Origin: Actinomycetes bacterium
Lineage (GTDB): Bacteria > Actinomycetota > Acidimicrobiia > Acidimicrobiales > Ilumatobacteraceae
DNA: 39,643 bases
Direction: 5' to 3'
Assembly: GCA_025359865.1 (NCBI GenBank)
Contig: JANYDH010000072.1
Coordinates: 1-39,643, forward strand
Shown here: positions 26,689 to 34,611 of the stretch, one piece after another
Numbering within the stretch: position 1 is the stretch's first letter
Layout: every line of letters begins with the position of its first letter
Made by a program: the position numbers and the translations under genes
Notes under the pieces: generated by a model
Database searches by the model: none
Told to the model about the DNA's origin: nothing
What the model saw: the letters and a program-made list of their open reading frames with translations, nothing else

Positions 26689-26777
26689 CTGCCGATCGCC
26701 CGCTGCGCCGGGCATGAAGCCTGCCCGGCCGACGGAACTTTGCGTTCGCTTCGATGCATTTCCGAAGCGCGGGCTTA

Positions 26778-26783
26778 TATATT
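26778..26783 (+). promoter_or_regulatory. Leaderless -10 box of the cupredoxin lipoprotein
   Basis: TATATT, the best -10 match in the window, 6 nt before the ATG at 26790. A weak -35 (TGCATT, 26755-26760) lies at 17-bp spacing. Confidence 0.55.
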
Positions 26784-26789
26784 CACGGG

Positions 26790-27188
26790 ATGCGCTCCCG
26801 TCTCTTCGCACCCACATTCCTCAGCGTCATCGGCATCAGCATCAGCATCGGTCTGCTTGCCGGATGCAGTGGCTCAAGTTCTGATGCCGGCACAGTTCCC
26901 GCTGATGCCGATCTGATCGTCACGGCCGAGGAAGGGATCCGACTCGACAGTCCGACGTACAGCACGAAGCCAGGCGATGCAGTCGTTGCGTACGTCAACA
27001 ACTCAAGTCTGCCTCACAACTTGCACTTCGTCACGGCCGACGGCAGCGAACTTCCGTCAATTCTCGAAGTCGCCCAGAAGGGTCAAACCGCAACCAAGAC
27101 GGTCAAGCTCGAGGCTGGCACCTACACGTTGATCTGCACGATTCCGGGGCATTCGAACATGAAGGCCACCCTCACCGTTGCCCCGTGA
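26790..27188 (+). CDS. Plastocyanin-like cupredoxin lipoprotein
   Basis: A 132-residue exported lipoprotein. The signal ends in LLAGC (Cys26). A single cupredoxin domain follows with a complete type-1 copper ligand set: H76 (LPHNLHF), C116, H121 and M124 in CTIPGHSNM. It is probably an outer-face electron carrier or copper protein. The ATG at 26790 is chosen over an in-frame upstream start because it gives a clean signal peptide and lies 6 nt after TATATT. It converges on the Urate_ox_N-like membrane gene. Confidence 0.9.
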   Translation: MRSRLFAPTFLSVIGISISIGLLAGCSGSSSDAGTVPADADLIVTAEEGIRLDSPTYSTKPGDAVVAYVNNSSLPHNLHFVTADGSELPSILEVAQKGQTATKTVKLEAGTYTLICTIPGHSNMKATLTVAP

Positions 27189-32482: not shown

Positions 32483-32529
32483 ACCGGTTGATAATGTGTA
32501 CTGATCAAATCTTGCTGAGGGGGCACATT

Positions 32530-34611
32530 GTGACCATCGCCATCGACATTCCGCAGCGACGGACCCTGTCGGCCGGGGTTCGGCTACCCGGTATTGCTGT
32601 CGCTGCCGTGGCGTCGATCGGTGCGGGAGCGATCCATGCCGCTGCTGCCGGTGTCCATGCCGAACATCCGCAGTTGGCACGGTTGTTCGTCCTCTGCTCG
32701 GTGTTTCAGCTCGGTACGGGGCTCTGGGCACTCGTCCAACCACGGCGTCTTGCAGCGGTCGCGCTTGCTGGGGTCAACGCCATTGCGGTCGGAGGCTGGC
32801 TCATCACCCGAATTGCCGGTGTGTCGTGGATCGATGGGCTACAGGAGCGAGAAGCAGCGCAGTTTGCCGACGCGAGTTGCGCCATCCTTGGTGCGATCGC
32901 CGTCGGCACCGCGCTCGCGGCTGTGCTCGTCGGGTGGCACCCGGGCCGAACCCAGCGCCTGTTTCTTCCCGGGTTCGCGGCAGCTGCCATCGCCATTCCG
33001 GCGATGCTCACCGCCGGAACACACGTTCACTCGCACGACACGTCGAGCGCCGCATCCGGTGACGGGTCAGCCCACGTTCACAGTGCCGATGAGGCTGGCG
33101 CTCCAACAGCGGCAGGTGGGGATTCCGGTGGCTCGGGGGCAGGGGCAGGGGCAGGGGCGACAGAAACCACGGCTCACACGCACGACCATGGCACGCAGAC
33201 CACCACGCCCGCGGGTGGGGCCAACAGTACCGAAACCACCGTGCACGACCATGGCGCAGGTGGCGGTGATGCGATCACCACCGCAGGCGGCGACAGCAGC
33301 GCTACCGAACCCTCGGTACACAACCACGGCGGCGGGTCAGAAGCGCCGGTCGCAGCCAACTGGCCGAGGCCGTGGGACCCCACCAAGCCGATCGACCTGT
33401 CCGGAGTCGCCAATGTTACCGCCGAGGAGCAGGCCCGTGCCACCAAGCTGGTGGAGGACACGCTGCTCGATCTGCCGAAGTGGGCCGATACTGCCGCGGC
33501 CATTGCCGACGGCTACACCTCGATCGGCGATGCCGGTACCGGTAGCGAGCACTACATCAAATTGTCGATCATCCAAGACGACGTGATCCTCGACCCGACC
33601 CAACCCGAATCGCTTGTGTACACCGTCGACGGCGACAAGCGCACTCTTGCCGGCGCGATGTTCATCACCAGCGCTCGTGCCACTGATGATCCCTCACTCA
33701 CCAGTTGGGCTGGACCGCTGATGCAATGGCACAACCACGGCAACCTGTGCTGGGACCGTGATGCCAGCGGCGTCGCGAAGGTGGTCGGCATCGTCGATGC
33801 CGACGGCAAGTGCGCCAGCGGCGTCAACACCGGCGGAGCCAACCCGATGGTCCATGTCTGGATCGTCCCGCATCCCTGCGGCGTGTTCGCTGCGCTCGAA
33901 GGTGTCGGTGCCGGTCAGGCAGCCGTGTCCGACGATCAGCGCGTCGACATGTGCAATCAGCAACACGAACACGGTGCGACTCCCGAGCCGGCCGCTGTTC
34001 CAACGATTGCCTACGACCCGACCAAACCGATCGACCTCGGTGGCGTCGCCGGCGTCACGCCCGAACAACAGGCCGCTGCCGAGAACCTCGTCGCCGTCAC
34101 CGTGGTCCGGCTCCCACAGTGGACTGACTACAAGGTGGCCGAGGCGGCGGGATTCCACTCAATCGGCGATGCGCTCACGGGGCACGAGCACTACATCAAC
34201 TGGGACTGGATCAACGACGATGTCACGCTCGACCCGGATCACCCGGAGAGTCTCGTCTATGTGCCACAACCCGATGGCTCGAAGTTGCTGGTCAGTGTGA
34301 TGTACATGTTGCCCGACACCGTCACACTCGACCAGGTGCCCAACATCGGCGGTGCGCTCATGCAGTGGCACATCCACGACAACCTGTGCTTCACCACCGA
34401 CCCGGTTGCCCCGCGCGTTTCGGGTGTCACCACCTCACAGGGCGGTTGTCCGGTCGGACAGCAGAAGTTCCGGCCGGCACCGATGATCCACGTCTGGATC
34501 ACGCCGAACGCGTGCGGCCCGTTCGCTGCACTCGAAGGCGTCGGCGCCGGGCAGGTCCTCGCCGGTCAGGATCATCTCTGCGACCACGTTCACGGTGACG
34601 GCCTGTTCTAG
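32530..34611 (+). CDS. Membrane protein with His-rich linker and two tandem His/Cys domains, unknown family
   Basis: 693 residues. The N-terminal 165 residues hold about five hydrophobic helices with His36, His43 and His46 in the first helix-loop. Residues 165-270 are a low-complexity Gly/Ser/Thr linker with HVHSHD, HTHDHG, VHDHG and VHNHG clusters. Two homologous domains follow (about 282-463 and 495-675). They share DPTKPIDL, SIGDA-x-TG-x-EHYI, LDP-xx-PESLVY, LMQWH-x-H-x-NLC, HVWI and FAALEGVGAGQ. The repeated EHY, WHxHxNLC and HVW-x5-C residues look like a metal site (inference). GTG at 32530 has AGGGGG upstream; an ATG at 32494 is an alternative. Confidence 0.8.
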   Translation: MTIAIDIPQRRTLSAGVRLPGIAVAAVASIGAGAIHAAAAGVHAEHPQLARLFVLCSVFQLGTGLWALVQPRRLAAVALAGVNAIAVGGWLITRIAGVSWIDGLQEREAAQFADASCAILGAIAVGTALAAVLVGWHPGRTQRLFLPGFAAAAIAIPAMLTAGTHVHSHDTSSAASGDGSAHVHSADEAGAPTAAGGDSGGSGAGAGAGATETTAHTHDHGTQTTTPAGGANSTETTVHDHGAGGGDAITTAGGDSSATEPSVHNHGGGSEAPVAANWPRPWDPTKPIDLSGVANVTAEEQARATKLVEDTLLDLPKWADTAAAIADGYTSIGDAGTGSEHYIKLSIIQDDVILDPTQPESLVYTVDGDKRTLAGAMFITSARATDDPSLTSWAGPLMQWHNHGNLCWDRDASGVAKVVGIVDADGKCASGVNTGGANPMVHVWIVPHPCGVFAALEGVGAGQAAVSDDQRVDMCNQQHEHGATPEPAAVPTIAYDPTKPIDLGGVAGVTPEQQAAAENLVAVTVVRLPQWTDYKVAEAAGFHSIGDALTGHEHYINWDWINDDVTLDPDHPESLVYVPQPDGSKLLVSVMYMLPDTVTLDQVPNIGGALMQWHIHDNLCFTTDPVAPRVSGVTTSQGGCPVGQQKFRPAPMIHVWITPNACGPFAALEGVGAGQVLAGQDHLCDHVHGDGLF

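Follow-up and report, generated by a model that had tools for sequence, protein, structure and literature searches.

The window analysed here, a stretch of DNA of 39,643 nucleotides from an uncultured actinobacterium, encodes a 693-aa protein in which a five-helix membrane module is followed by a His-rich linker and two copies of an unnamed domain (Table 1). Our best explanation, offered tentatively from the sequences and their relatives, is that this could be a membrane-anchored, extracytoplasmic metal-handling protein, with copper as its likeliest cargo. The protein probably binds a metal of some kind, and copper is our leading, still provisional, candidate for that metal.

Architecture of the protein

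The GTG start is supported by a homologue (L040), whose called start yields MTIAID at the equal place. The two domains, each of about 200 residues, are identical at 96 of 202 aligned positions (48%; BLASTP E 4e-57), and with the five predicted helices this agrees with the initial annotation, which had described a membrane protein with a duplicated domain. All five of the common motifs that it had listed (SIGDA-x-TG-x-EHYI, LDP-xx-PESLVY, LMQWH-x-H-x-NLC, HVWI, and FAALEGVGAGQ) are present in both copies, and, as it had also pointed out, His and Cys recur at equal places in domains 1 and 2; we count four of each. Likewise, the HxHDHG-like clusters that it had noticed in the linker were found as THVHSH, HVH, HTHDHG, HDHG, and HNHG, with 12 His in 117 residues. 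Below, we use the numbering of the domain 2 model, in which H554, H614, H616, and H654 are H61, H121, H123, and H161, and C620, C640, C662, and C684 are C127, C147, C169, and C191.

Table 1 Features of the gene and its product in the window
Feature	Position	Strand	Residues	Basis and remarks
Whole gene	32530..34611	+		ORF and translation; 693 aa, GTG start
Membrane module, five helices	32593..33018	+	22-163	Alignment A5 of 22 modules and AF2
His-rich linker	33019..33369	+	164-280	His count; 12 His
Domain 1	33370..33972	+	281-481	H341, H401, H403, H442; C407, C428, C450, C475
Domain 2	34009..34599	+	494-690	H554, H614, H616, H654; C620, C640, C662, C684

The domain in sequence and fold searches

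The domain had initially been annotated as unrecognised, and the HMM and structure-based searches proposed at that time returned no confident match to a characterised domain. The window protein matched no Pfam family at E ≤ 1 and no NCBIfam family at E ≤ 10, and nothing better than E 0.09 was obtained among PDB sequences. Searches of the PDB with profiles gave a best E of 0.33 for A1 and no match at E ≤ 10 for A3, while the single match of profile A4, a repeat protein at 0.01 of which no stretch passes alone, was taken as chance. When 18 relatives were scanned against Pfam, no family exceeded its cut-off on the domain, and the only families above cut-off were the cupredoxins of L088 and L090 described below. 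Rows below the cut-off on or near the domain (DZF_N in L022, 0.38; GNAT-phage-like in L084, 0.15; FliC_D2 in L089, 0.02) were also taken as chance.

An AlphaFold2 model of one domain, built from a 53-row alignment, reached a pLDDT of 87 and a pTM of 0.84. Foldseek found no PDB entry at E ≤ 0.001 for this model (best 0.23), which does not prove a new fold, and a fold search of BFVD at the same threshold was equally empty. With VIA-align, no chain among 989 had Z ≥ 5 (best 3.2), a result that excludes nothing; the same holds for the absence of any named cupredoxin among the best 50 of 153 Foldseek rows and the VIA-align rows listed. TTHB210 (3vg8) was considered as a fold relative and rejected, as its Z was only 2.8 and profiles A3 and A4 did not match it. 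Nothing on this system was found in the literature among the matches listed.

Conserved histidines and paired cysteines

Conservation was assessed after thinning 97 sequences at 75% identity, which left 66 rows; one row is a fragment of the domain of L088 that was counted beside the whole L088 domain. What defines the superfamily, represented by alignment A3, is the presence of the first and last His and of three motifs, GxH, LDPxxPE, and H(V/A)W. All 66 rows retain the first His, and 65 retain the last. The HxH pair is kept in 59 rows and the Trp before it in 53. In alignment A1 (45 of 50 non-redundant domains) and in the superfamily rows, the His are kept at equal places in domains with as little as 23% identity to domain 2. 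A narrower alignment, A2, comprised domains scoring ≥ 100 (loci L031-L065) and the two domains of the window.

The cysteines behave as pairs. In 56 rows C127 is accompanied by C147, the remaining 10 rows lack the two, and neither ever occurs alone; the L088 fragment accounts for one of these 10 rows as well as for the single missing H161. C169 and C191 occur together in 40 rows, are both missing in 23, and mismatch in 3, so that they are together or absent in 63 of 66 rows; in the three mismatches (L080, L081, and L083) there is a Cys close by that was left unpaired in the alignment. Because the members of each pair are present together or absent, C127-C147 and C169-C191 look like disulfides of an exported protein rather than metal ligands. 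The metal site of His and Cys that had been suggested at first is therefore better read as a possible His site, which conservation favours, accompanied by predicted disulfides, and the initial interpretation is thus supported in part.

The membrane module and the linker

AF2 modelling of residues 6-169 from a 31-row alignment gave five helices with a pLDDT of 89 and a pTM of 0.85. All 22 aligned modules share H36, H43, W90, and E108 without variation, and Q60 and D114 are near-invariant; H36 and H43 lie in the N-terminal helix region, where the initial annotation had noticed further His. Six Lys/Arg (3+1+2) fall in the stretches assigned to the inside and two (0+1+1) in those assigned to the outside, the linker included. 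This tally, which depends on the helix bounds chosen, suggests that the C-terminal part of the protein, with the linker and the domains, lies outside. The module was detected in 44 of 246 genomes, its own included. In each of the 30 proteins counted, the window protein among them, the stretch between the module and the domain contains 2-12 His and one HxH or more. Zinc and nickel proteins, too, often carry linkers rich in His.

For the module, the top 13 VIA-align rows were without exception bundles of Csp copper storage proteins with Z about 10, the best having a Z of 10.3 and an rmsd of 4.1 over 104 aligned residues. Csps are described as thiolate-lined bundles that are mostly cytosolic, whereas Cys is absent from the conserved columns of the module. 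We therefore rejected an assignment of the module to the Cys-lined four-helix bundles of the Csps; the likeness exists at the level of the bundle and is probably that of a common shape.

Fusions and gene neighbourhoods

Two relatives from genomes of the same family (L088 and L090; genomes G016 and G020) have a cupredoxin (Copper-bind, 1.1e-5 and 2.2e-6) fused behind the domain. The ligand region of these cupredoxins carries the run CTLHPDM, which we take to resemble the ligand loop of amicyanin. A possible synteny between the two loci and the window, raised by clustering, was dismissed, as the neighbouring ABC gene has no more than 27-32% identity to that of the window over 167-169 residues and none of the other window genes found a match. 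True synteny with the window was found at L135 and L061; it comprises housekeeping genes and is uninformative on function.

The membrane module is also joined to copper proteins, being fused to a multicopper oxidase in L161 (Cu-oxidase_3, 5e-25; Cu-oxidase_2, 3e-24) and to DUF305 in L158 (1e-50). Of ten proteins with the module that were chosen by eye among its loci and scanned, this multicopper oxidase and this DUF305 protein were two, one had GGDEF, and seven had nothing above the Pfam cut-off, which indicates that the module is not confined to copper. Two proteins of about 2000 aa with the module at their start, L183 and L185, matched multicopper oxidase more weakly, though above the cut-off (2.8e-7 and 3.5e-5, with no single stretch passing alone), and a third large module protein, L178, had no Pfam match. 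Ig-like matches were also seen in L183 (241-6414, -) and L185 (7101-13058, +), and a further module gene lies near each.

We then compared the 140 nearest genes in 20 module loci with 140 random control genes in 17 loci, leaving out genes longer than 1500 aa, genes with X, and genes holding the module itself. Multicopper oxidases made up 4 of the 140 neighbours and none of the controls, an excess that is suggestive and, in a test this small, not significant by itself. DUF305 neighbours were no different from controls (3 vs 2). A ZIP transporter occurred in 2 of the 140 neighbour genes, and E1-E2_ATPase (4 of 140) was discarded as metal evidence since the family is not metal-specific. The Pfam tables of this comparison hold the best 25 of 137 and 25 of 219 families, and families beyond these may have two members; multicopper oxidase and DUF305 were counted directly. 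At L168 (3239-6654, +), a multicopper-oxidase-like gene overlaps the start of a module gene by four bases, as in an operon.

A survey of the neighbours of homologues, also proposed in the initial annotation, was unrewarding for the domain: no functional neighbour recurred among 452 genes, with home-made, rough gene calls that missed genes in several loci. No YHS domain was found in the own genome. Some 5 kb upstream of the duplicated-domain gene, the window holds a small cupredoxin-like protein (26754-27185, +; Copper-bind, 2.2e-7) in which visual inspection suggests a possible lipoprotein signal; the two genes are not adjacent and we claim no link between them.

Distribution and age of the duplication

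The domain is a real, unnamed family. It is present in 27 of the 61 genomes that represent its own order and the levels below it, its own genome included, and this recurrence, with the grouping of N-terminal copies in the tree, makes it more than chance. Across the phylum, a profile search found it in 33 of 396 genomes, again with its own genome counted, and GTDB contigs yielded 35 domain loci, among them those of three Blastococcus and of Desertimonas flava. In the tree of 72 domains, a branch with support 100/100 separates the two kinds of copy: 21 of 21 N-terminal copies, together with 16 'single' rows, lie on one side of it and 21 of 21 C-terminal copies on the other (midpoint root; bootstrap not fully settled). 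This split indicates that the duplication is old. Singles of either kind suggest losses of one copy, although a few of them (L009, L055, and L060) lie on contigs that are cut or broken.

With two far relatives, L094 and L082, as intermediate tblastn queries, small relatives were recovered on replicons of Gemmatirosa, Neorhizobium, Ensifer, Haloarcula, and Halorarius; domain 2 itself as query retrieved no plasmid relatives. All six plasmid relatives match profile A3 at E 1.8e-17 or better (nominal 1000 sequences). Five of them are annotated as "hypothetical protein" (e.g., WP_275027670.1), and the Gemmatirosa record has no annotation. Judged by these profile matches, the family spans Actinomycetota and, via the intermediates, Gemmatimonadota, rhizobia, and haloarchaea.

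The small relatives of rhizobia, haloarchaea, Gemmatirosa, and Actinomycetota have a core of GxH, (L)DxxxPxxLxY, and LHxW in common with the window domain. Unlike the window protein, they are about 120-200 residues long and have one domain, with no membrane module seen. The last His is kept in six of the six plasmid relatives and the first in five, with Pro in its place in Halorarius. Five of the six small Actinomycetota relatives were scored as having no HxH or Cys pair; by individual positions, neither His of the HxH is found in L089, L091, L094, and L095, and one is found in L092 and L093. Thus, a site of four His is not general in the superfamily. The two Haloarcula plasmid relatives (L206, 5836-6381; L208, 5881-6441) have twin-arginine-like signals at their start by eye, which fits export.

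Proposed function and alternatives

According to the mechanism that we propose, the five helices would anchor the protein and leave the linker and the two globular domains outside the cell, where the linker would catch metal arriving at the surface. In each domain, a single metal ion may be bound by H61, H121, H123, and H161, near the Trp of HVW, and the putative disulfides would brace the fold. Metal might then move between the protein and a partner, for which a cupredoxin such as that fused to the domain in two relatives is a candidate, and H36, H43, E108, and D114 of the membrane module could make up a second site or serve for docking.

Copper is favoured by the cupredoxin fusions of the domain and by the multicopper oxidase and DUF305 fusions of the module. 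The cupredoxin and multicopper oxidase fusions speak against zinc (or nickel or cobalt), with which a protein of identical anatomy would be an outside collector or sensor. The HxHDHG linker would be explained equally well by zinc, and the four conserved His and the ZIP transporters near the module would also suit it, whereas no Zur-like box was recognised by eye in the stretches upstream of the gene and its homologues, which is weak evidence; overall, we regard zinc as unlikely. A copper or iron redox enzyme, in which the His site would turn over a small substrate and a fused or free cupredoxin would pass electrons, could draw on the fusions of L088 and L090, on multicopper oxidases with the same module, and on the strong conservation of His and Trp. 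Such an enzyme appears improbable to us, given that no substrate gene cluster recurs and no known oxidase gave a significant fold match.

The His may instead be structural or line a pocket that accepts a wall polymer or some other ligand, in which case the protein would bind no metal and be an adhesin-like surface protein. The small relatives that lose HxH and keep the other motifs, the Halorarius protein without the first His, and the lack of a recurring metal gene beside members of the domain family are in line with this. It is at odds with the fusions to copper proteins and with the conserved His and the HxH found in the linker of every module-bearing protein counted, and it has the slimmest prospects of the explanations considered here.

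Two known copper proteins resemble the proposed one. CopM is an exported DUF305 protein whose His-containing domain is duplicated, as in the window protein, and binds copper (PMC4335983); DUF305 is also what the module is joined to in L158. YcnI (DUF1775) has a membrane-tethered outside copper domain and shares with the window protein the tether and conserved His and Trp, whereas it has a cupredoxin fold with an N-terminal monohistidine brace (PMC8424229). As the window protein had no Pfam family at E ≤ 1, neither DUF305 nor DUF1775, CopC, CopD, or a cupredoxin was accepted as its identity.

If copper is bound, the protein would represent a novel type of copper protein at the cell surface, and several uncharacterised actinobacterial genes would be linked through the module. 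That an undescribed fold binding copper through four His outside the cell, in a superfamily reaching bacteria and haloarchaea, is coupled to an unnamed module common to multicopper oxidases and DUF305 proteins, and so forms a new actinobacterial surface copper system, is a more doubtful proposal. The window protein has no Pfam or NCBIfam name and sequence searches gave no solved relative, yet the superfamily reaches from Acidimicrobiia to haloarchaea. Copper or not, the two modules are sharply delimited candidates for structural work and metal measurements, and we see in them a promising target, not yet a system that has been solved.

Upstream regions

A simple palindrome scan, complemented by eye, revealed no shared operator upstream of the gene and its homologues. 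An imperfect inverted repeat, TTGATAA-N7-TGATCAA, lies shortly before the gene at 32488-32508 and was not seen ahead of homologues. TACACT-like boxes occur close before the start codons of homologues (e.g., L032, 2074; L033, 2574; L035, 1463; L037, 124; L135, 5944), placed as if their transcripts were leaderless.
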